Source: a bacterium
GTDB lineage: Bacteria; UBP6; UBA1177
DNA: 57,698 nt
Reading direction: 5' to 3'
Assembly (NCBI GenBank): GCA_017961325.1
Contig: JAGCXM010000043.1
Coordinates: 1 to 57,698 of the forward strand
The notes beneath the pieces were generated by a model. The model did not search any database. It was not told where the DNA came from and was given only the letters and a program-made list of their open reading frames with translations. The translations under genes and the position numbers were made by a program. Positions 30,185 to 52,571 of the stretch are shown here, piece by piece; the first letter of the stretch is position 1; every line of letters starts with the position of its first letter.

Positions 30185-30565
30185 TCATTTTTCCAACGCC
30201 TGTCTTGTGATTTCATCGCTGAAATCACTCCTTTTTGAAAGAATTTCCGAATACAGATCAGAATAATTTGCTTTCAAATCGCCGATTTCGCCCGTAATTT
30301 CCGCAATATGAACTATTATCTGCTTATGTGTTCTGACATAGGAAACTTTGTTCAGATTTACGAGCGGATATTGCTCCGGATCAACCATAACATCGTAATA
30401 TTTATTAAGATTTTCCTTTCTTGAAACTGTAGAGACTGGAAGAACAACAAAATCAGCTGCATCCGCCTTTGCCAGAATCAAAACAGGGCGGAACTTGAAA
30501 GCAACCCCCTTTTCTATGTCGAAATATTTGACAAGGGCTTTATATATTTTGCCTGTTGAAATCAA
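30185..30565 (-). CDS. PemK/MazF-like toxin of a type II toxin-antitoxin pair
   Basis: A 126-residue protein with the PemK/MazF beta-barrel signature KFRPVLILAK and strands ADFVVLPVSTVS; the C-terminal part has VRTHKQIIVHIAEITGEIG. MazF-family members are mostly mRNA endonucleases; the catalytic residues are not clear from inspection. It starts 5 nt after the DUF4065 gene with a TTG codon, consistent with antitoxin-toxin coupling and lower toxin expression. Its stop lies 13 nt before the mtaD start, in the same direction. Confidence 0.7.
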   Translation of the reverse strand: MISTGKIYKALVKYFDIEKGVAFKFRPVLILAKADAADFVVLPVSTVSRKENLNKYYDVMVDPEQYPLVNLNKVSYVRTHKQIIVHIAEITGEIGDLKANYSDLYSEILSKRSDFSDEITRQALEK

Positions 30566-30570
30566 GCTGT

Positions 30571-31053
30571 TTACGCCTCGTCTTCGAATTCGTCATAATA
30601 CATATCCCATACATGATCGTAAGGACGTATCTTGGCCGCATCAGCTCTTATATCATCAAGATTCAAAGGAACATCACCGTTTTCGTCAGGATCAAGCCCT
30701 TTTCTCGCGTTTTGCCACGAAGAATCTTTATGCGAGAGTTCGCTGAGTTCCCATGAAGCAAGCAGACCGTACTCAAACACAACATTATTGACAATATATT
30801 GAAGTTCTGCGGGAATTTCTTTTGTCGGAACGATGATTTTTCCATCAGCATAAACATCACGGACATCTCTGCTGACAGGCCCGTATTTCCATCCTTCAAA
30901 AACCTCGTCAAACGCAGGTTCTCCTGTCTCGGCAATAGTTTCACGCTGGGTAAGATAAAGAAGTTTGTGCAACTTCATTTCATCAAGGTTTTCGTCTGTT
31001 ACAGCATGATACTGCCTGATTATGTAAGCTGCAACATCAGTTATACGTGCCAT
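30571..31053 (-). CDS. Panacea-domain (DUF4065) antitoxin
   Basis: A 160-residue protein with the DUF4065/SocA-like pattern: ITDVAAYIIRQY, LDEMKLHKLLYLTQ, FEGWKYGPVSRDVRDVY and a C-terminal helical region. Panacea domains are known as antitoxins that pair with many unrelated toxins; here the partner is the PemK/MazF-like protein 5 nt downstream. The frame extends to 31092, but the ATG at 31053 follows AGAGGTG and matches the family start. A clear promoter precedes it. Confidence 0.82.
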   Translation of the reverse strand: MARITDVAAYIIRQYHAVTDENLDEMKLHKLLYLTQRETIAETGEPAFDEVFEGWKYGPVSRDVRDVYADGKIIVPTKEIPAELQYIVNNVVFEYGLLASWELSELSHKDSSWQNARKGLDPDENGDVPLNLDDIRADAAKIRPYDHVWDMYYDEFEDEA

Positions 31054-31083
31054 ATTCACCTCTCGCAATAACAAAGCGGCATT

Positions 31084-31111
31084 ATTATACACACAAATAT
31101 ACGATCGTCAA
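31084..31111 (-). promoter_or_regulatory. Promoter of the toxin-antitoxin operon
   Basis: On the minus strand TTGACG and TATAAT are spaced by 16 bp (plus-strand coordinates 31106-31111 and 31084-31089), about 30 bp before the DUF4065 start. The 16-bp spacer contains CGATCG, which could be part of an operator. Confidence 0.72.
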
Positions 31112-31160: not shown

Positions 31161-32960
31161 TTACTCCAGCACCGCGTCTTCCCTGCTCTGATACATTTCT
31201 TCGGAATGCATTCTGATTTCGCGGTTTACGAGTGTTGCCGCTTTGAAAAGGGTCGCTGCGAAGCGGTTGATCGTGCCGAGAACTGAATCCGACTGGTTTT
31301 CTTCCTCTTCTTCGTCTTGGAAAAGGCTCAAAATTCCGTTTGTGTCGGGGTATTTCACAAACGGGCAGTCGGGAATAGCGATTTTTTCTTTCATGTAGCC
31401 GTATGCCGCCATGAAGCCGCCGATTTCATCAACAAGTCCGTTTTTGTAAGCCAGTCCGCCAGACCAGACGCGGCCGTGAGCGAATTTTTCGAGATCCATT
31501 GCGTTCATTTTTCTGCCGTCAGCCGCCCTCTGTACGAAAGTATTGTATGTTTCGTCGAGGTTTTTGTTGAGATATTCTTCCTGCTCCGGCGTGAATTTTT
31601 CAAGCGCTGAGAGGAAATTATTGTTTTTGCCGATAGTCACGCTGTCGAAGGTGATTCCGAGCGATTCGAAGAGGTTTCTCGTGTAGAATTTGCCGATCAC
31701 GACTCCGATCGAGCCGGTGATCGTGTTGTGGTCTGCAAAAATCCTGTCTGCGTTCATCGAAACATAGTATCCGCCGGATGCCGCGACACTTCCCATTGAA
31801 ACGATGACGGGTTTATTTCCGAGTTTTTTGATTGTTTCGACCTGGTTCCAGATCGTTTCGGAGGCTATTACCGAGCCGCCCGGAGAGTTGACGCGGAGGA
31901 TTATTCCTTTCACGTTCTCGTCTTTCCATGCCTTTTTAAGAAGCGAAACAATCGTCGTTGAACCGCTTGACTGCGGCTTTCCCGAAGGCGACATATCGCT
32001 GACACCGCGGTGGATCGAGCCCGGAACTTCGATGACTGCAATTTTAGGTCCTGCAACAGGCGTGATTTTGAAAAGGTCTTCGCCGATATTTTTGTATGCG
32101 ACGACAGAAAGTTTGTGCTCATAACCTGTCTGGTTCCTCATTTCCTCAAGGATTTCATCTTTGTAGCGGATTCCGTCGATGAGGTTGTTTTTTACCGCAT
32201 AAGGCGAAGTCATAGAGACTGAATCTGCGATCTCATAGACTTTGTCAATCGGGATCCTGCGGCTTTCGGAAACTTCCGCTGCCACTTTGGAAAATATTGA
32301 ATTTATTAAACTTTCAGTCGATTCGCGGTGAGCTTCGGTAAACTTGTCCTCGCTGTACATGTTCCAGTAGGTTTTATATTCCTTCCTTGCCGCGCCGATC
32401 GGTTCGACCTTGATTTTTTCAAGCATATTCTTGAAGAAAATTGAAGTTGAACTCATGCCGTTGAAAGTGACGAAACCCGAATTCTGAAGGAAAATCTTGT
32501 CCGCGGCAGTTGCAAGATAGTAGCTTTTCGTGCCGCTTGAGTATTCGCCGTAAGAATCGCTCCAAGCCCACACTTTTTTGCCCGCATTTTTGAACAAAAT
32601 CAGCTCGTTGCGGAGTTCTTCAGCCTGAGCATAACTCAAATTCATATCACTCAGATCAAGAAAAATCCCCACAATTCTGGGATCAGCCGCAGCCGCTCGG
32701 ACCGAAGTCAGAGTGTCAAGAAGGGAAATCTGCTTTCCGAAAAACGAGTCGAGCATCATGTAATTCGTTTCAGGGAAAACATCGCCGCTTATCGCTCCGG
32801 CATTGATCGTAAGGAGCGTTTTTTCCTGCACTTCCTTTTTACCGAAGCCCGAAAAATCTATGCTGGAGATGAGCCAGACAATAAGAGCGATGTTTAGGAC
32901 CGTGAGAACCCCTATCACAATGAAGAACCTAGCGATCACTTTCTTAATAAAATCGAGCAT
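31161..32960 (-). CDS. sppA: Signal peptide peptidase SppA, 67-kDa type (S49)
   Basis: A 599-residue membrane-anchored serine protease that degrades leftover signal peptides at the cytoplasmic membrane. One N-terminal helix (about 8-32) is followed by two S49 domains. The catalytic Lys193 lies in the first (GAARKEYKTYW), Ser395 in the second (SVAASGGYYVS), matching the Lys/Ser pair of E. coli SppA. FADHNTITGSIGVVIGKF follows as expected. The start at 32960 has an ideal ribosome site (AGGAGGTTCAA) and a promoter at 33020-33047. Confidence 0.95.
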   Translation of the reverse strand: MLDFIKKVIARFFIVIGVLTVLNIALIVWLISSIDFSGFGKKEVQEKTLLTINAGAISGDVFPETNYMMLDSFFGKQISLLDTLTSVRAAAADPRIVGIFLDLSDMNLSYAQAEELRNELILFKNAGKKVWAWSDSYGEYSSGTKSYYLATAADKIFLQNSGFVTFNGMSSTSIFFKNMLEKIKVEPIGAARKEYKTYWNMYSEDKFTEAHRESTESLINSIFSKVAAEVSESRRIPIDKVYEIADSVSMTSPYAVKNNLIDGIRYKDEILEEMRNQTGYEHKLSVVAYKNIGEDLFKITPVAGPKIAVIEVPGSIHRGVSDMSPSGKPQSSGSTTIVSLLKKAWKDENVKGIILRVNSPGGSVIASETIWNQVETIKKLGNKPVIVSMGSVAASGGYYVSMNADRIFADHNTITGSIGVVIGKFYTRNLFESLGITFDSVTIGKNNNFLSALEKFTPEQEEYLNKNLDETYNTFVQRAADGRKMNAMDLEKFAHGRVWSGGLAYKNGLVDEIGGFMAAYGYMKEKIAIPDCPFVKYPDTNGILSLFQDEEEEENQSDSVLGTINRFAATLFKAATLVNREIRMHSEEMYQSREDAVLE

Positions 32961-34394: not shown

Positions 34395-34421
34395 CGGTTC
34401 CTGAGCTAGTCGAAGGAGCCG
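34395..34421. repeat. REP-like hairpin with GAGCTAGTCGAAGG core
   Basis: CGGTTCCT and AGGAGCCG pair (one G-U) around GAGCTAGTCGA. The complementary core TTCGACTAGCTCAGGAACCG resembles an arm of the hairpin at 42021-42068 (TTCGACT...GCTCA...ACCG), so both belong to one small dispersed family. Confidence 0.55.
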
Positions 34422-34683
34422 AATCAGCTACCACGCAACCCGCCGCAGTTTGTCTTCCGATTAGGGAACTTCTATTCAATATCCTGATTTTGTGATTACA
34501 AAAATCATGCCGTGCAATCATGTTTGAGAGCTGAGCAATTGGGAAAATCAGGTGTTATCGAGGTCGAAAATTCCGACCTTGAACGGAAACGGGAATTATT
34601 TTGGTGAGTTATGAATGGGGAAAGAATTCCTTTTTCTTTATCGGTTTGAGGAATTGTTTTTTCAGTTCGCGTTCGTTTCGGGC

Positions 34684-34712
34684 AAAAAAAATGGCGGGTC
34701 AGTCTGCCCGCC
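34684..34712 (-). terminator. Strong intrinsic terminator on the minus strand
   Basis: A GGCGGG/CCCGCC stem with an 8-nt loop, followed on the minus strand by A and eight T residues (plus-strand A-run 34684-34691). It lies about 335 bp beyond the KAP gene stop and would end transcripts of the KAP/helicase unit. Confidence 0.72.
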
Positions 34713-34828
34713 GTATTAGGTTGAACCTGGGTGTTTAAACCAGCTCAATGCAGTCAATATATGTAATTTATCTTAAAAGTCAAATTATTTTTAAACACAA
34801 TTTCAGAATTTTTATCTGTAAATTTGTA

Positions 34829-34956
34829 GAGGCGTCATACCATGGCGTCTCCTGCCCCCTCTGTCTGTGGCACCTCCCGCCCCCTCAGTCTGCTTTGCAG
34901 CCAGCTCCCCTGTTCAGGGATGCCTAAATTGGTAGAGACGTGACCTGAAACGTCTC
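34829..34956. repeat. Compound repeat: two GAGRCGT hairpins flanking a C-rich direct repeat
   Basis: Hairpin 34829-34851 (GAGGCGTC/GGCGTCTC) and hairpin 34935-34956 (GAGACGT/ACGTCTC) resemble each other. Between them are two copies of CTCCYGCCCCCTCWGTCTG (34849-34867, 34874-34892; two differences). Such symmetric ends around a short core look like a small non-autonomous element. Confidence 0.5.
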
Positions 34957-34988
34957 GCGAAATCAGAAAAAAATAGGTCTTCGATGTC

Positions 34989-35010
34989 GGAGCGCGGGCA
35001 GCTTGCCTGC
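34989..35010. repeat. Copy 2 of the GC-rich hairpin repeat
   Basis: Matches the copy at 33065-33086; here it reads GCGGGCAGCTTGCCTGC in the hairpin part. Confidence 0.6.
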
Positions 35011-35011
35011 A

Positions 35012-35048
35012 AGTTTTTCAAGACTCCATTTTGGCATCTTGAAAAACT
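35012..35048. repeat. Perfect 12-bp inverted repeat at the KAP gene 3' end
   Basis: AGTTTTTCAAGA (35012-35023) and TCTTGAAAAACT (35037-35048) flank a 13-nt loop and overlap the KAP stop codon. There is no following T-run on the minus strand, so it is more likely an mRNA 3' stabiliser or an element end than a terminator. Confidence 0.55.
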
Positions 35049-36486
35049 AAGGTAAAATTTTTTGGAAACTAGAGAGTTTATCAATGTTATTCAAAACACC
35101 AGAATAAGAACGCTTTTTCATTTGGTTAATATTGTATGGACGGTATTGAACGCCCTTAAACGAGTAGTCTCTCTTCACTAAATAATACAAATATGTGTAA
35201 ACAATCATAAATATATCTGATTCATCTATAACAATTCCAGTATAGCTACCATCTGGTACGATTTCTTTTTTTTGAAAATTAAACCCACTATTTGCATCCT
35301 TAAATTTCTGCGGCATATCTAATAATTCAAAAACATTTTTGCTATTGAATTTATTATTATTTACGAAAATGTTTTTCCCTTTATATAAACGACAAATAGT
35401 CACAATAAACAGTTCCGTATACATGACTGTGCAATCTAGTTTTTCTTTTTCATTTTTAAAGCAAAGGTCATGAAATATTTGGGCTTCTTTTACTATTTCT
35501 TCCTGCGAACGGATATCTACATCTCGAAACAATTCTTCAATAAATTTTGCGGTTTTATCAACATCAAGTGTCCATAGGGAAGGATCAAAACGAGTATAAA
35601 AATCGGAAAATTTTTCAAGAAATTTAAGTGTGTTTTGACTGCCTTTATCCAAATACATCTCAAATTGAATAAATTTCTTCAAATATCTCTTAGCATTGTC
35701 TTCTCCAAATATTGATCCCACAGTATGTTTCAAACTATCTTTATCAACTGCAATAATAGTTACCATGTTAGGCACACCTTCCGAGACATGATGCAGACGT
35801 TCCAAAACCTTTATTGCATACTCTGGGAGACATCGATCTAATTCATCAACACAAAATACGATAGTTTTACCTTTCAACAAATCTACAAATGCTTTTTTTA
35901 GCTTTTCCAATGTATCTTTAAGCTCAAAATTAGTATCATATGATTTCTCATTGATACTTGTAGCAGCATCAAAACTATCCATAATGCCGTTAATTGCCTC
36001 AAATCCTTTTTCTAAGTTTAATCCCGTTTTATACTCCACATAGTGCACACCAGCTGACAAGGCTACTTTTCCTAGTTGTCTTGCTATGGTTACAATTTTT
36101 TCCTTCTTCTTTGGGGATACCTTTTTTGTTTTTTTCAAAAAATCAAGGAGTGTAGATATTATCGCAACCAAAGGTTCTTCATAATAGTCATATTGCCAGC
36201 AATTATACGGAATTACTAAGAATTTTTTATTCTCATCATTTTCAAGTCGTTCTTCTATTTTCTTCAAAACAAAGGTCTTGCCACATCCCCACTCACCATT
36301 TATGGCAAAAGTCATATTTCCATTATTATCCGCAATCTTATTTACTATTTCGATAACATGGTTTATAAATTCATCTCTATCGAGAATGTCTATTTTTTCT
36401 CTACATCGCAAATCACCATCCATTGTTTTGCCAAGCTTTACATGTTTTTCTTGAACATCACTTTTTAACGAACATTCCTTTTCCAT
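35047..36486 (-). CDS. KAP-family P-loop NTPase
   Basis: A 479-residue ATPase. Walker A is INGEWGCGKT (G64-T71), preceded by LDRDEFINHVIEIVNKI. The KAP-type Walker B is FCVDELDRCLPEYAIKVLERLHH (about 228-250). Many KAP NTPases have membrane helices inserted in the P-loop domain; none is evident here. KAP proteins such as PifA cause phage exclusion, and others anchor signalling complexes. The frame extends to 36519, but the ATG at 36486 follows GAGGTC and has its own promoter. Base composition is more AT-rich than the core genes, pointing to transfer. Partner: the helicase gene 260 bp upstream. Confidence 0.85.
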   Translation of the reverse strand: MEKECSLKSDVQEKHVKLGKTMDGDLRCREKIDILDRDEFINHVIEIVNKIADNNGNMTFAINGEWGCGKTFVLKKIEERLENDENKKFLVIPYNCWQYDYYEEPLVAIISTLLDFLKKTKKVSPKKKEKIVTIARQLGKVALSAGVHYVEYKTGLNLEKGFEAINGIMDSFDAATSINEKSYDTNFELKDTLEKLKKAFVDLLKGKTIVFCVDELDRCLPEYAIKVLERLHHVSEGVPNMVTIIAVDKDSLKHTVGSIFGEDNAKRYLKKFIQFEMYLDKGSQNTLKFLEKFSDFYTRFDPSLWTLDVDKTAKFIEELFRDVDIRSQEEIVKEAQIFHDLCFKNEKEKLDCTVMYTELFIVTICRLYKGKNIFVNNNKFNSKNVFELLDMPQKFKDANSGFNFQKKEIVPDGSYTGIVIDESDIFMIVYTYLYYLVKRDYSFKGVQYRPYNINQMKKRSYSGVLNNIDKLSSFQKILP

Positions 36487-36529
36487 TTTGACCTCACAGA
36501 AAAAATTGGTAAAAAACAAATCGAATATC

Positions 36530-36557
36530 TATATAAAGACGAACCTTAAATCGTCAA
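36530..36557 (-). promoter_or_regulatory. Promoter of the KAP gene
   Basis: On the minus strand TTGACG (36552-36557) and TATATA (36530-36535) are spaced by 16 bp, about 44 bp before the start. The KAP gene can therefore be expressed apart from the helicase gene. Confidence 0.65.
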
Positions 36558-36745
36558 GCCCTAAAAATAAGAAAATTCACAAAATCAAGTAAAGAATGAT
36601 AAAGATTTCTTTACTTTCACATTATTTTCTTAACAAAAAAACACAGAGCTTTTTGCTGGCAACTCTTATTATTATCAAGCACTTAAAGTGTTATGAAGAT
36701 TGTTTTTTGAGCTATATTATTTTTTCTGAATTTTCCAATAGTCTT

Positions 36746-39559
36746 CTATAGAGAGTCAATAAATTCATCAAGAGACATCTTTTTTTTCACATTTTTTTCT
36801 TCAGGCTGCTTTGCTTTAGTTTGCTCATATACATTTTGCTGTTTTTGCCTGTTTTCATCAAATGGGATCTTGCAGCAATCCGGCTTTATTTCTTCAACAA
36901 AAACAGACGGTCTTTCCTCCTGCATTAAAATATATACTACAGATTTGGTCCTTGTAAGCGCAACATAAAATAAACGTCTTTCTTCTGCATACTGAAAATC
37001 TTCAGGTGCTCCGAGAAGCAGATTGATTATCGGGTCGTCTATGGTTTTGTTCGGAATATTGCCAGCGTTGACCAATACCACAAAATCGCTTTCCAAACCT
37101 TTTGAAGAATGAATGGTTGTACATGATATTTTTAAATTCGGGAAAGCGCGCTTTGTTTTAGACTGAAACTCTTTGTTGATGTCGTTATTTGTTCTTCCAA
37201 GTATCAAAACTTCGGCCGAACGATTAATCGCAGAAATTTCGTTAAGAGCCTTTTCCAATGCACCGGAACTATTTTCTTCTCCTTTATAAGTTATGATTCT
37301 GACGGGATCTTTCTGATTTTTATCTGATTTTATCTGCTTTTTAAACTGTCTCGGGTTCTTTGTTATAAAATTTGCTGCTATCTTTTGTAAGTCTGCGGAA
37401 TTTCTGTGAGTTTTAGTTATGTAATTAACTGTGGCATCCAAGAAGGTTTTGTTTTTGAAATCCAAGAAGATATTTATGTCGGAGCCGCTGAATCTGTATA
37501 TTGACTGCCAGTCATCACCAACAACCATCAGTTTTGAATTTCCGTGTTCCGCCAGTTTTTTCAAAAAATTGAATCTGCTCTGGGAAATATCCTGAAATTC
37601 ATCAATAAGAATGTATTTGTAACAATATTTGGTCTTGAACTTTGGCGTATCCAGCAAATCTGTTGACTGCAGGATCATGTCATCGAAGTCGATTTTATCA
37701 TTTTCTTTGAGAGAAGTGATATAGCAATCATAAATTTCTTTGGATATTTCGAGGAAAATCTTTGTTCTCTCCCTTTCATAACCGGTCAAACCGTCTCCTA
37801 ACGACGCAAACTGGGAATTGTCTCTGTATTTTGATTTATAAATAGCTAAAAATGTTTCCAGAACATCAATAAATTTTGAAAAATCCTTGCCTTCATATAA
37901 ATCGTGGACAGTTTCTTTGATCTGTTTCGTAGTCAACGGCTTTAATTTGACCCCGTTCTCCTCCAACCTCTTTTTTAAATTTGTGAAAATCTTTCCGTTG
38001 GAAAATTCGGAAGAATATGTCTCTATACAAACAGTGTTGTACTTTTTGTGCGTCTCTCTTTTCCAGTCTATGCTTTCAAGATACTTCTGTTCTTCATCAT
38101 ATGAATATTGACGTGCTCTCCCGTTTTTATCAATCCCGTAATGTTCTATATAAATTTTATATTCCGGCAGATAAAAATCAGGGCAGTACTGGCGTTTGTC
38201 AAGCGTTGCCGTATTGATTTTATAAGGTTTTTCATACTCATATTCTATACCGTTCACAAACAGATAATTGGCAATTACCAGCTCTTCTACACTTTTGACA
38301 TACTCTTTCCTGGCTGTCACATTATACTTTAAATCAGTGTTGAGGTTTCTAAGAGCTTCTTTCAAGGTTCTGTATGGTTTTTGAGACATCCAGTCTTTTG
38401 GATCTTCTTCAAGTTCATTTCTCCGAAAATCAAGTGTTGTCGAGTGAAGATAGCGTGAAAAATATTTAAAAATCTTTTTTGTAAAATTGGTATCGTTAGA
38501 AGAGAACTTTTCGTCAAAAAAGGCTTTTATGTGAGACTTTATCTGATCTTCTACGGCTTTTTTTCTGCCAAGATGTTCGCTCAGAATTTTCAGTCCAAAA
38601 GAGTGGAATGTTTCAGCCTTCATATCGACAGGAATCTTTGCCACTTTTAGGCTTATATCATCAGCCGACTTTCTGGAATAAGACATCAGCAGGATTTCGT
38701 CTTCTTTTGCCATATTATTTTCCAACAGATATTGGATTTTTCCGCATATAGTCAGTGTTTTTCCGGATCCGGCACCTGCAACAACCAAATTATGTCTGGA
38801 ATCGCACAAAATCGCTTTTCTCTGCTCGTTATCCATTGAATAGCCGCATATCCTGCTGAAAATAGGATCATTTAGGTGTTTTGTTATAAAATCTTCATTA
38901 TGCTTCCTGATTTTTTCCTGAAGTAAATTTGATGCCTTTTTACTATTTCCGCCTTCATGATCAATTGCATCCAATTCTTCCCTTAAATCATCAAAAAAAG
39001 AATCGTTTGGTGCAAAATACACATCAGGAAAAGGTTGGGAAATATATTCTTCAAAATCATTGATGCTGTCGAAAAAACAGTCGTAATAAAAATCCGCAAT
39101 TCTTTGAGGCTTTAAATTTTCTACAGAAGCAATTCCTGATTTTTTTTCACTAATTTTATTGTTGTGGTCATTTATTTTGTTAAAAAGCTGGCTCCTATTT
39201 ATGGATGCCAGTTTTTGATCATACACATTTATTTCATTAATTATGCGCAGCAAATCTTTAACAACCGAATTACAGGGGAACATATATCTGCTTGGGAAAG
39301 GGCGTGAGGCAGCTACTTGAAACTTATTGTTCAAAGAAATCAATTTATCATTTTCAGTCTTGTGTTTTTCCTCCTTATTACTTGATTCGTTGTTATAATT
39401 GCTTTTCTTGTTCTTTCTTGAAAGCTTGAATATGATTATTAGCAATAAAACAACTATCCAAAATATTCCATGGAACACCTGTTCGCAATTCAGTTTTTTT
39501 GATCCTACGATAAATATTCTTATTATATTAGCAATGGCTAATATCGCAATTGCCCACAT
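36746..39559 (-). CDS. Membrane-anchored UvrD/helicase IV-like SF1 helicase with nuclease-like insert
   Basis: A 937-residue protein. Two membrane helices (about 2-19 and 30-46) are followed by a charged linker and a helicase IV-like SF1A core: P-loop AGAGSGKT near 260, DEFQDIS near 650, GDDWQSIYRFSGSDIN (about 673-688), HSSKGLESDFVVL (about 798) and YVALTRTK. Between domains 1A and 1B (about 425-510) lies an insert with VEELVIANYLFVNGIEYEYE and CPDFYLPEYKIYIEHYG, like a PD-(D/E)XK nuclease (Glu, Asp, Glu; the Lys is not obvious). Helicase IV itself is soluble; the anchor is unusual. Three AAAGATT heptamers abut the start and no good ribosome site is seen. Confidence 0.82.
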   Translation of the reverse strand: MWAIAILAIANIIRIFIVGSKKLNCEQVFHGIFWIVVLLLIIIFKLSRKNKKSNYNNESSNKEEKHKTENDKLISLNNKFQVAASRPFPSRYMFPCNSVVKDLLRIINEINVYDQKLASINRSQLFNKINDHNNKISEKKSGIASVENLKPQRIADFYYDCFFDSINDFEEYISQPFPDVYFAPNDSFFDDLREELDAIDHEGGNSKKASNLLQEKIRKHNEDFITKHLNDPIFSRICGYSMDNEQRKAILCDSRHNLVVAGAGSGKTLTICGKIQYLLENNMAKEDEILLMSYSRKSADDISLKVAKIPVDMKAETFHSFGLKILSEHLGRKKAVEDQIKSHIKAFFDEKFSSNDTNFTKKIFKYFSRYLHSTTLDFRRNELEEDPKDWMSQKPYRTLKEALRNLNTDLKYNVTARKEYVKSVEELVIANYLFVNGIEYEYEKPYKINTATLDKRQYCPDFYLPEYKIYIEHYGIDKNGRARQYSYDEEQKYLESIDWKRETHKKYNTVCIETYSSEFSNGKIFTNLKKRLEENGVKLKPLTTKQIKETVHDLYEGKDFSKFIDVLETFLAIYKSKYRDNSQFASLGDGLTGYERERTKIFLEISKEIYDCYITSLKENDKIDFDDMILQSTDLLDTPKFKTKYCYKYILIDEFQDISQSRFNFLKKLAEHGNSKLMVVGDDWQSIYRFSGSDINIFLDFKNKTFLDATVNYITKTHRNSADLQKIAANFITKNPRQFKKQIKSDKNQKDPVRIITYKGEENSSGALEKALNEISAINRSAEVLILGRTNNDINKEFQSKTKRAFPNLKISCTTIHSSKGLESDFVVLVNAGNIPNKTIDDPIINLLLGAPEDFQYAEERRLFYVALTRTKSVVYILMQEERPSVFVEEIKPDCCKIPFDENRQKQQNVYEQTKAKQPEEKNVKKKMSLDEFIDSL

Positions 39560-39652: not shown

Positions 39653-39851
39653 ATGAAATTTTCTTGTCGAAAACATCATTCGGATACCACTTTTCCCCAA
39701 CACCCCGCAATTAAGCCCGATACGCTCAAATAATCAACAAAAATCTTTGATTTTTTTTCGGTTTTTGGTCTGAGAATGAGGAAATGCGAGTGACGCTTAT
39801 ATTGCGCCACTGAGCAAAAACGTTAATTTTTAATTTAGAATCAAAATATAT

Positions 39852-39879
39852 TTGATAATTTTTCAAATTTAATCATAAT
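39852..39879 (+). promoter_or_regulatory. Possible promoter of the ORF6N gene
   Basis: TTGATA (39852-39857) and CATAAT (39874-39879) are spaced by 16 bp, 35 bp before the ATG. Confidence 0.45.
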
Positions 39880-39913
39880 ATTGATGTAAAAAATTTGTTT
39901 TTGATGTTTGGAT

Positions 39914-40825
39914 ATGGAAAACGAGATAGTAATTCACAACGAAAATCAACCCCAAATCGACATCGAAAGTAAAATCTTAGTCATTCGTGGTCAGCATGTG
40001 ATGATAGACCGCGATCTGGCTGAACTCTACGGGGTGGAAACAAAAGTTTTGAATCAGGCAGTAAAAAGAAACATTGAGCGATTCCCGGAAGATTTTTGTT
40101 TTCAATTAAATAAGACAGAATTTGAAATTTGGAGGTCACAATTTGTGACTTCCAATTCTGACAAAAAAGGATTGCGACGTCCGCCGTATGTTTTCACCGA
40201 ACAAGGAGTTGCAATGCTATCATCAGTTTTAAGAAGCAAAAATGCTGTCGAAATAAACATCCGGATAATGCGTGTTTTTGTCGCTCTGCGCCGCTTTCTC
40301 AAAACAAATGCTCAAGTTTTTCAACGATTGGATTTTATTGAAAAAAGACAGATCGACACAGAACTCCATCTATTGGAATCCGACAGAAAAATTGATGAAC
40401 TTTTCGACAAAATGGACAGATACAAAATCGAGGACAAACAAGGAATCTTCTTCCAAGGTCAGATTTTTGATGCCTACGCAAAATTTGAGTCATTTATTGC
40501 CGAGGCTGAAAACGAGATTGTTCTGATTGACAATTATGTAGATCTTACGGTTCTTGAACGCTTGGCAAAGAAGAAAGACGCTGTAAAAGTTACAATTTTT
40601 ACCTGTCCAAAAACAAAAATCACGTCACTTGATATCCAAAAATTCAACGAACAATATCCGCTGCTTGAGCTGAACCATACAGAAAAGATCCATGACAGAT
40701 TTTTGATTATCGACAATAAAATCCTTTACCACATCGGAGCTTCTCTCAAGGATTTAGGCAAAAAATGCTTCGGATTCGAAATCATGGATTCATCGTGGAT
40801 TCAAGAAATTATGCGGAATTTGTGA
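39914..40825 (+). CDS. ORF6N-domain protein with phospholipase D-like C-terminal region
   Basis: A 303-residue protein. The N-terminal ORF6N domain (about 15-105) has ILVIRGQHVMIDRDLAELYGVETKVLNQAVKRN, FPEDFCFQL and YVFTEQGVAMLSSVLRSKNAV, a KilA-N-related fold typical of phages and mobile elements that probably binds DNA. A helical linker (about 125-165) leads to a region (about 175-303) with a single PLD-like motif KIHDRFLIIDNKILYHIGAS; the canonical HxK is HxR here. The frame starts with a TTG at 39908, but the ATG at 39914 is preferred. It is flanked by AT-rich repeats shared with the neighbouring DUF1016 remnant. Confidence 0.82.
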   Translation: MENEIVIHNENQPQIDIESKILVIRGQHVMIDRDLAELYGVETKVLNQAVKRNIERFPEDFCFQLNKTEFEIWRSQFVTSNSDKKGLRRPPYVFTEQGVAMLSSVLRSKNAVEINIRIMRVFVALRRFLKTNAQVFQRLDFIEKRQIDTELHLLESDRKIDELFDKMDRYKIEDKQGIFFQGQIFDAYAKFESFIAEAENEIVLIDNYVDLTVLERLAKKKDAVKVTIFTCPKTKITSLDIQKFNEQYPLLELNHTEKIHDRFLIIDNKILYHIGASLKDLGKKCFGFEIMDSSWIQEIMRNL

Positions 40826-40916
40826 GATATTAGGCAATGTTGAGTAGAAAAATAATGAAATGCGATTGGTGATTGCGTTGTGACGCAAAGTTAAGACTAT
40901 AATTTTTAATTTAAAA

Positions 40917-41013
40917 TCAAAATATGTTGATATTACCTTTTAATTTGATCGCTATAGCGATGTTGGAGATTGCTAACTGAGCCTGGGAACGAGATGGTAT
41001 TTTGCGTCGAAAA
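40917..41013. repeat. 97-bp direct repeat, copy 1 (with 14-nt palindrome)
   Basis: About 85 of 97 positions match the copy at 41880-41976. It contains the perfect palindrome ATCGCTATAGCGAT (40948-40961) and a conserved tail CCTGGGAACGAG. The repeat starts just after the ORF6N gene and ends next to the 3' end of the broken DUF1016 gene. Confidence 0.85.
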
Positions 41014-41017
41014 GCAT

Positions 41018-41802
41018 TTATTTATTTCCATTTTCATCATGCTGTAGTTTGAAAATTTCTTTCTGATGTTCTATTTCTGCCTTTAACTGTTCTTCGGTAG
41101 GCATACAAGTCATAAGTTTTGTGGCAAAAAGACGATCGCTTTCTCTAAGAACCGAGTATTTTGCAATAGCCTCGTCCGTTTCAGAACAAAGCAGAACCCC
41201 GATTGTCGGATTATCGCCGTCAGTCCTTTTCAACTCATCGTACATTCGAACATACATATCCATTTGGCCGACATCCTGATGCCTGATTTTGCCAGCCTTC
41301 AAGTCTATAAGGACATAGCATTTTAAGATAATGTCCTGACACTCCACATTTCTTTCGATGCCGCTTCAATATACCAACGGCAGGCGGTTTCATCCGCGAC
41401 GCGTAAAACCGCAAGGTAGTGTGTCCATGTCAAATTTGGAAATCGCGTTTTCCAAATCTCTGATTCCGGGAAAATCACGTAAAATTTTCTGAATTGCCTC
41501 AGATATCGTGCGGAAAATCCAGTGCCGTATTCTTTAGTAAGCTCTTCCGAAAGCAATTCTATCAAATGAGCACCGTACGCAGCGCGAGTTTTTCCTTTCT
41601 GCTCCTGTTCTATGATTCGCCTTCCGATGTTCCAATATGTTTGAATCATAACGGCAGAAACTGCGCTGTATGCTGACTTTCTGCCTTCATTTATTATCTT
41701 CTTTATATCATTTACAAAGACTGTTTCAGATTTAATGAGATTCTCATTTCCTTGTTGCCTTGCTATTTTCTTATTCATTGCTTTGTTCTGATTTTCCGAC
41801 AT
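41018..41802 (-). pseudogene. DUF1016 nuclease gene broken by a central deletion and frameshift
   Basis: The N-terminal part (41323-41802; ATG at 41802 after GGAGTGAAAC) encodes the DUF1016 helical domain with QTYWNIGRRIIEQEQKGK and YGTGFSARYLRQFRKFY. The C-terminal part in another frame (41018 to about 41347) encodes only the end of the nuclease, CYVLIDLKAGKIRHQDVGQ. Compared with the intact copy at 33211-34227, roughly 110-130 residues are missing at the join, including the first catalytic Asp region. It should not make an active nuclease, though the N-terminal domain might still be produced. The 97-bp repeats flank it exactly. Confidence 0.85.
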
Positions 41803-41879
41803 GTTTCACTCCTAAAAACAGAAAACCCGAACACTGTAATAAATATTTATAATAATTGAGGAAAATTTGTATTTTCAAA

Positions 41880-41976
41880 TCAAAATATGTTGATATTGCT
41901 TTTTAATTTAATCGCTATAGCGATGTTGGAGGTTGGGAACTGAACCTGGGAACGAGGTGTTTATTTGTGTCGAAAA
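41880..41976. repeat. 97-bp direct repeat, copy 2 (with 14-nt palindrome)
   Basis: Pairs with 40917-41013, offset 963 bp. The palindrome ATCGCTATAGCGAT is at 41911-41924 and is unchanged, although the flanks differ at about 12 positions, suggesting it is functionally constrained. Confidence 0.85.
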
Positions 41977-51620: not shown

Positions 51621-51689
51621 AAAATTGCGTTTTTAAGGTAAATTTTGTAAAATTCTTGCCGATAGATTGTTCGGTTTTAAGAGGTGTTT

Positions 51690-52571
51690 ATGGAATATTT
51701 GTCAGTGGCTCAGTTTGCAGAAAAGTCCGGCATAAGCGAAAGGACACTCCGCAACTACTGCGCGACCGGAAAGATGGAAGGTGCTTTTCTTGTCGGAAAA
51801 ACGTGGAATATTCCCTCAGATGCGGTCCTGCCAAAGCGCACGAAAACAAAGACGACTCCGCTTTTGACCGCCTTACGAGAGCAGAAGGAATCCAAACTAA
51901 AGGGCGGGATCTATCACAGGACGCAGGTCGAACTGACATACAGCTCGAACCACATCGAAGGGAGCAGACTCACGAAAGATCAGACGCGGTTTATATTCGA
52001 GACTAACACGCTCGGATTCGCGTCAAAAAACACAAATGTCGATGATATTATTGAAACCGTCAATCATTTCAGGTGTATAGACTTTGTTATCGACCACGCT
52101 CAAGAAAAAATCACAGAATCTCACATAAAGCAGCTTCACTCGATTTTGAAGGAATCGACTTCGGATAGCCGCAAATCGTGGTTCGCAGTAGGCGCATACA
52201 AACGTTTTCCGAACGAAATCGGATTTGAGGAAACAACATTGCCTGAGGATGTCCACAGCCGTGTGAAAACGCTTCTTGCCGCGGACAACGCGCTGAAAGA
52301 GGTTAAATTTGACGATATTCTCGATTTTCATGTGCAGTTCGAGCGGATCCATCCGTTCCAGGACGGAAACGGCAGAGTCGGCAGGCTTCTCATGTTCTGG
52401 CAGTGCCTTAAATCGGGAATCGTTCCCTTCATAATCACAGAGAATATGCGTCTTTATTATTACCGCGGGATCCAGAACTGGGGAAAACACAACGCATTCC
52501 TGCGCGACACCTGCCTTTCGGCGCAGGATGACTACAAAGCACTGCTTGATTATTTCAGGATCAAATATTGA
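51690..52571 (+). CDS. Fic-domain protein with N-terminal helix-turn-helix
   Basis: A 293-residue class II Fic protein. The N-terminal HTH (about 2-45; YLSVAQFAEKSGISERTLRNYC, GKTWNIP) is excisionase/MerR-like. The inhibitory-helix motif SSNHIEG at about 86-92 fits [S/T]xxxE[G/N]. The Fic core is HPFQDGNGRVGR (about 222-233). Fic enzymes transfer AMP from ATP to a protein hydroxyl; the inhibitory motif keeps them off until released. The frame starts with a GTG at 51684, but the ATG at 51690 has AAGAGGTG before it. The target is unknown; autoregulation through the HTH is inferred. Confidence 0.92.
   Translation: MEYLSVAQFAEKSGISERTLRNYCATGKMEGAFLVGKTWNIPSDAVLPKRTKTKTTPLLTALREQKESKLKGGIYHRTQVELTYSSNHIEGSRLTKDQTRFIFETNTLGFASKNTNVDDIIETVNHFRCIDFVIDHAQEKITESHIKQLHSILKESTSDSRKSWFAVGAYKRFPNEIGFEETTLPEDVHSRVKTLLAADNALKEVKFDDILDFHVQFERIHPFQDGNGRVGRLLMFWQCLKSGIVPFIITENMRLYYYRGIQNWGKHNAFLRDTCLSAQDDYKALLDYFRIKY

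Follow-up and report, generated by a model that had tools for sequence, protein, structure and literature searches.

The window analysed here is the whole stretch of 57,698 nucleotides of one bacterial contig, and its minus strand carries two neighbouring genes, one for a UvrD/helicase IV-like protein with an insertion of nuclease type and one for a KAP P-loop NTPase (Table 1). The helicase ORF is intact from start to stop. The KAP ORF, listed as 35047-36519(-), is intact as well, and its start is likely the ATG at 36486, which follows a Shine-Dalgarno-like GAGG and gives a protein of 479 aa. Both genes adjoin sppA, and the neighbours of the helicase in the window are KAP, ORF6N and DUF1016 genes. 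An earlier reading of the DNA made from the letters alone, here called the sequence-only reading, had described a membrane-anchored helicase beside a KAP NTPase as an AT-rich pair in a repeat-filled island with defence-type genes. The Pfam assignment of the KAP protein agrees with this, as do GC contents of 31% for KAP and 35% for the helicase vs 47-50% in the flanking host genes; Fic, PemK-like and SocA/Panacea genes lie in the island and its repeats recur on other contigs.

Table 1. Features of the helicase and KAP genes and of their surroundings in the window (aa, residues of the encoded protein).
Feature	Position	Strand	Remarks
PemK-like and SocA/Panacea genes	30185-31092		
Terminator-like stem GGCGGG/CCCGCC + 8 T	34693-34712	-	~335 bp past KAP stop
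KAP P-loop NTPase, PADLOC candidate PDC-S20	35047-36486	-	PF07693 1.1e-38; PDC-S20 1.7e-108
KAP Walker A, GEWGCGKT	36274-36297	-	
Gap, helicase stop to KAP start	36487-36745	-	259 bp; only chance-level weak promoter-/terminator-like matches
UvrD/helicase IV-like helicase-nuclease	36746-39559	-	937 aa; ATG at 39559; PF00580 (UvrD-helicase, Pfam) 3.5e-45
C-terminal peptide KKKMSLDEFIDSL of helicase	36749-36787	-	Replaces CxxC-rich tail (Top1-type zinc ribbon) of most homologues
Helicase motif II, DEFQD, aa 653-657	37589-37603	-	Motif conservation
PD-(D/E)XK nuclease insert, aa 415-540	37940-38317	-	Conservation, model, Foldseek
Putative catalytic K500	38060-38062	-	
Putative catalytic E472	38144-38146	-	
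Putative catalytic D461	38177-38179	-	
Putative catalytic E426	38282-38284	-	
Helicase Walker A, AGAGSGKT, aa 261-268	38756-38779	-	(Nearly) invariant across 110 homologues
Variable spacer, aa 83-229, two FP-D-x-Y...HN units	38873-39313	-	Between anchor and motor
Two N-terminal hydrophobic helices, putative membrane anchor, aa 1-45	39425-39559	-	Hydropathy and model
Fic gene	51684-52571		

The motor of the helicase is of the SF1 UvrD/Rep type, with Walker A, motif II and other motor motifs conserved, and the full-length model (pLDDT 79) matches UvrD, PcrA and Rep structures in the PDB with E-values down to 1.8e-18. Helicase IV is the best curated family match, and the SF1 motor of E. coli HelD is 33% identical over motifs II-VI and 29% identical around Walker A. 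However, HelD lacks both a nuclease insert and N-terminal membrane helices, and the distance from Walker A to motif II is 392 residues in the window helicase vs 221 in HelD and ~190 in UvrD/Rep-type proteins. The helicase IV equivalog model NF008276 gives 306 bits against a cut-off of 543 bits, and Helicase_IV_N (PF12462), which E. coli HelD matches at 5.6e-63, has no match in the window helicase. By this curated score the protein is not helicase IV.

The insert lies between Walker A and motif II. In an alignment of 110 homologues E426 is kept in 108, D461 in 108, E472 in all 110 and K500 in 104, i.e., in 98-100% for the first three and in 94% for the lysine, so that the catalytic residues typical of the PD-(D/E)XK superfamily are retained as strongly as the motor motifs. 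The homologue search pattern favoured YEYE near aa 440-443 and conservation there is partly built in; all four residues lie outside that pattern. They form the pattern E...PD...EH...K, in which EH replaces ExK and the lysine is found on a following helix. Modelled with 61 homologues, the insert reaches a pLDDT of 86.7 (95-98 in the core). Against predicted viral proteins Foldseek matches it to VSR, homing, DUF2726 and restriction endonucleases with E-values from 6e-5 and a probability of 1.00, and the best clean PDB match is I-Bth0305I, a homing endonuclease of the Vsr/EDxHD type (probability 0.93, TM 0.76 on the target, rmsd 2.8), from which the domain differs in being embedded in a helicase. 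The core fold is indicated by the model and by the viral library; the PDB search with the isolated insert is supportive through its probabilities, although all its E-values are 0.14 or higher and none of them is significant. The PD-(D/E)XK-like insert between the motor halves that had been read from the letters is thus borne out, and the structure prediction proposed at the time yields a confident core with a Vsr/homing endonuclease-like fold. Conservation and modelling together show a conserved Vsr-like PD-(D/E)XK nuclease domain with putative cleavage activity.

Two N-terminal membrane helices had likewise been claimed, and a structure prediction of this anchor suggested. Hydropathy peaks of 2.2 at aa 1 and 2.65 at aa 28 coincide with helices modelled at residues 2-18 and 25-53, and a positively charged stretch follows the putative anchor. 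By hydropathy prediction the anchor is found in every helicase copy of the genus with a readable N-terminus. The helices of the spacer that follows were modelled at low confidence; its FP-D-x-[YH]-L...HN units, each ~90-115 residues long, occur one to three times per spacer in the window helicase and in three relatives (L021, L022, L023), their number varying among genus relatives. Compared with its two closest relatives in the genus, the window helicase shows 74-80% identity in the nuclease, 69-81% in the motor, 24-39% in the membrane helices and 22-32% in the spacer. The nearest relatives outside the genus, from Clostridia, are 52% identical over aa 214-911, which covers motor and nuclease, and have an N-terminus that looks unrelated and is devoid of membrane helices. 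In a FastTree phylogeny of 107 rows, an N-terminal membrane helix is predicted in 27 and none in 80, and the label changes nine times, at least six of these on well-supported branches; the use of a simple hydropathy cut-off and of mechanical starts makes these counts of gain or loss approximate. To judge by these alignments, the N-terminus is fast-diverging and exchanged between lineages while the core is conserved. Anchoring is inessential to the family, because most homologues are predicted to do without it.

The opposite end of the protein also varies. At least two CxxC motifs are present in the tails of 80 of the 110 homologues, a Top1-type zinc ribbon is found at the C-terminus of all eight insert-bearing members tested, and Helicase_IV_N occurs in several members of the proteobacterial branch; the window helicase has neither the zinc ribbon nor Helicase_IV_N. 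The motif KMSL[DN]E[FL][IM]DS forms the C-terminus of two helicases of the genus (that of the window and L022) and is also located within the N-terminal region of a third (L021, aa 172-180); possibly it serves as an interaction peptide whose place in the protein shifts. The helicase of another relative (L023, 8757-11618) ends in an extension resembling the Lcl_C (DUF1566-type) domain, which is common in the genus.

Whether the two genes belong together was addressed from both sides. The sequence-only reading had proposed that helicase and KAP protein cooperate, and had named their co-occurrence across genomes as the test by which the pair would fall; the result went against it at the helicase loci as well as at the KAP loci. 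Searches by phmmer and with an eight-sequence profile covered 109 further helicase loci, a few of them duplicates of one another, and detected no KAP gene in the vicinity; 2 kb or more of sequence flanks the helicase on one side at 105 of these loci and on both sides at 67. Conversely, a helicase of this type is missing from the surroundings of 11 further KAP loci, six on plasmids and five in genomes. Among the six helicase-bearing genomes of the genus a close KAP is found only in that of the window and is missing from the other five. Five helicase copies of the genus are followed by five different genes, namely the KAP gene of the window, an unknown 363-aa gene, an AriA/PtuA-like ATPase, a SEC-C protein and an unknown 266-aa gene. 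A two-gene defence module, in which sensing or recruitment would fall to the KAP protein and DNA destruction to the membrane helicase-nuclease, would fit the adjacency of the genes on one strand, their shared AT-richness, the terminator-like stem after the second gene and the occurrence of KAP proteins in known defence systems (PifA, QatA). Against it stand the empty loci on both sides, the five genus relatives devoid of KAP, the changing downstream genes, the 259-bp gap and a GC3 of 0.27 for KAP vs 0.36 for the helicase, and we regard such a module as very improbable. The strong shared terminator that had been described is present as a stem with eight T, while its being shared is unsupported: the region holds seven terminator-like sites vs 6.3 in shuffled sequence, and promoter-like matches are also at chance level. 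Given these chance-level matches and the gap, one shared transcript is not shown. A two-gene module is not supported; the KAP gene stands beside the helicase by chance as a separate gene, for which a partnership is likewise not supported.

On its own, the KAP protein matches positions 3-417 of the 446 positions of the PDC-S20 model, i.e., nearly the whole model, at 1.7e-108, whereas against QatA it scores 92.8 bits with a cut-off of 600 bits. It has no predicted membrane helix (hydropathy maximum 1.17). PDC-S20 is rare, present in four of 386 genomes, and is a candidate family only, for which a literature search retrieved no report of anti-phage activity. A peptide-pattern search of viral contigs returned no relative of the KAP protein, and phage records gave only five weak matches. 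The closest KAP protein found is encoded on plasmid pTS1 of Treponema saccharophilum (L190) inside a type I restriction operon that also holds ORF6N, Fic, HNH and abortive-infection genes.

In relatives, the distance from sppA to mnmA is 12 bp (G006), 1.7 kb (G014), 13 kb (G007) or ~16 kb (G004), and the longer intervals carry DUF1016, RhuM/ORF6N-like, HD-CE, SIR2-like and AbiEi-type genes; the interval was observed at 31161-32960 of the window and at four further loci (L271, L274, L275, L277). Judged from these comparisons, the sppA-mnmA interval is an integration hotspot of the kind where defence genes collect. mnmA is absent from the window, so the right flank may be rearranged or the insertion longer. 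Within the island, a second DUF1016/YhcG copy at 41018-41802 is a frame-shifted remnant whose nuclease domain has lost its first part, and the ORF6N protein at 39908-40825 has a C-terminal half of phospholipase-D-like appearance (HDRFLIID) and paralogues on contigs C24, C27, C32 and C43, with more in each relative. Intergenic repeat segments of ~25-190 bp are located at 39768-39945, 40825-41013, 41864-41976 and 34400-35046 and recur across islands and relatives; the one lying upstream of the helicase terminates in GTTAGGT, and its folding is better than that of its shuffles (z -3.1). An origin of these segments as integron cassettes was considered and rejected, as the 15 genomes of the genus contain no integron integrase above the cut-off, the repeats are short and patchy and the genes lie in both orientations.

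Such repeats, common to several islands, together with the homologues carried by plasmids and viral contigs, would suit a helicase-nuclease that serves the mobile island itself, aiding the spread of the island or its carriers or excluding competing elements. Contrary to this, no integrase, relaxase or transposase lies next to the helicase gene within the window and the tyrosine recombinases found in the genus all score below the integron integrase cut-off, which leaves a function of this kind improbable.

The scan of GTDB species genomes confirmed at least 579 relatives of the helicase, in Bacillota, Bacteroidota, Pseudomonadota, Fibrobacterota, Acidobacteriota, Actinomycetota and other phyla. 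In the genus itself the gene is present in six of 15 genomes (for one of its members, L031 = G001, the NCBI label 'Spirochaetales' is doubtful, and the phylum assigned to it holds only 28 genomes). The genome of the window carries a second membrane-type copy at C36:13473-15638 (L288; also L002, L025), which is 51% identical and broken by stops after motif II, with a Schlafen AlbA_2-type gene just upstream. A patchy distribution that crosses phyla, together with decay, is in keeping with an accessory gene, whose mobility these genome comparisons show. A comparison of the neighbours of homologue loci revealed no conserved partner gene. An uncontrolled PADLOC scan of the neighbours found defence genes near homologues. 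Two homologues of the genus have core-like surroundings, L024 between lon and hslU and L028 near cell-wall genes, and these contexts fit repair as well as defence. A membrane-linked enzyme of DNA repair or DNA uptake, which would act at the membrane on DNA that is broken, branched or imported and play no part in defence, is the main rival and in our judgement unlikely: the kinship to helicase IV, the wide distribution, the core-like copies and the many members with a Top1-type zinc ribbon and a helicase IV N-terminal domain speak for it, whereas within one genus the gene is patchy, multi-copy and decaying, its interval is hypervariable and filled with genes of restriction, abortive-infection and toxin-antitoxin type, and its N-terminus evolves unusually fast.

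The helicase-nuclease probably serves instead as an accessory guard against foreign DNA that enters the cell. This reading is drawn from the conserved putative catalytic residues, the model and fold matches of the insert, the predicted anchor in all genus copies with a readable N-terminus, the different N-terminus of the Clostridia relative, the patchy distribution, the broken paralogue, the defence-rich variable island and the lack of a conserved partner gene, with SNIPE as a functional precedent. It is weakened by the core-like contexts of L024 and L028, by the many unanchored homologues, by the PDB E-values of the insert and by the generic nature of the PADLOC matches. For the whole chain, a stand-alone membrane-tethered helicase-nuclease acting on incoming foreign DNA, belief and doubt are evenly balanced. 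The N-terminal hairpin would tether the enzyme to the cytoplasmic face of the inner membrane. As DNA enters the cell, the motor would load at an end or a single-stranded stretch of it and draw it through, and the inserted nuclease would cut the DNA as it passes. Such placement would spare the host nucleoid and put the enzyme where a phage or plasmid enters, the variable N-terminus setting location or target and the conserved core cutting. From the features described we infer that the enzyme sits at the inner membrane, cuts DNA and acts on phage or plasmid DNA as it comes in. The KAP NTPase would be a separately acquired candidate defence gene of the same variable island.

Several known systems share parts of this design. 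SNIPE is a membrane-bound GIY-YIG nuclease that cuts phage DNA during injection; 59% of its members have one N-terminal membrane helix, 7% have two and the others none, and its N-terminus is variable with the nuclease domain being most conserved (PMC13190303). The window helicase resembles it in the predicted N-terminal membrane helix and in a conserved core behind a fast-changing, exchangeable front. In contrast, SNIPE has no helicase motor and uses a GIY-YIG nuclease in place of PD-(D/E)XK, and neither GIY-YIG nor DUF4041 of SNIPE has a Pfam match in the window helicase. Nhi is described as a single-gene nuclease-helicase used in defence, and by that description it is alike in uniting nuclease and helicase in one protein; a membrane anchor for Nhi is not mentioned in the parts of the review considered here (PMC12904381). 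No Nhi model is among the best 25 of 46 PADLOC matches. The best PADLOC matches are to GajB of Gabija, a UvrD-type defence helicase, whose models align to the motor regions in separate stretches; GajB works with GajA, however, and GajA is absent beside the window helicase. PADLOC holds no specific model for this family, the matches being generic to the UvrD type. By analogy, the window helicase may work like SNIPE plus a motor, or like Nhi. Its architecture is not that of helicase IV, SNIPE, Gabija or Qat, and a literature search found no paper on this exact architecture, which is not proof that none exists.

On a broader scale we tentatively propose, as a possibility that is somewhat doubtful, an unnamed and widespread family whose members unite helicase and nuclease in one protein. 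Their helicase IV-like motor, bearing a Vsr-type nuclease, would be positioned by an N-terminus that can be exchanged, be it a membrane hairpin, a helicase IV N-domain or another type, and the anchored forms would unwind and cut entering DNA as a motor-driven counterpart of SNIPE. Setting the helicase apart from the KAP gene keeps a misleading two-gene system from being described. That bacteria can use membrane location to distinguish incoming DNA from their own has been recognised only recently. With anchor, motor and nuclease in one chain, and an anchor that appears to be repeatedly gained or lost, the family would allow a test of whether location alone gives specificity, as homologues that share a catalytic core but differ in anchoring offer a direct comparison.
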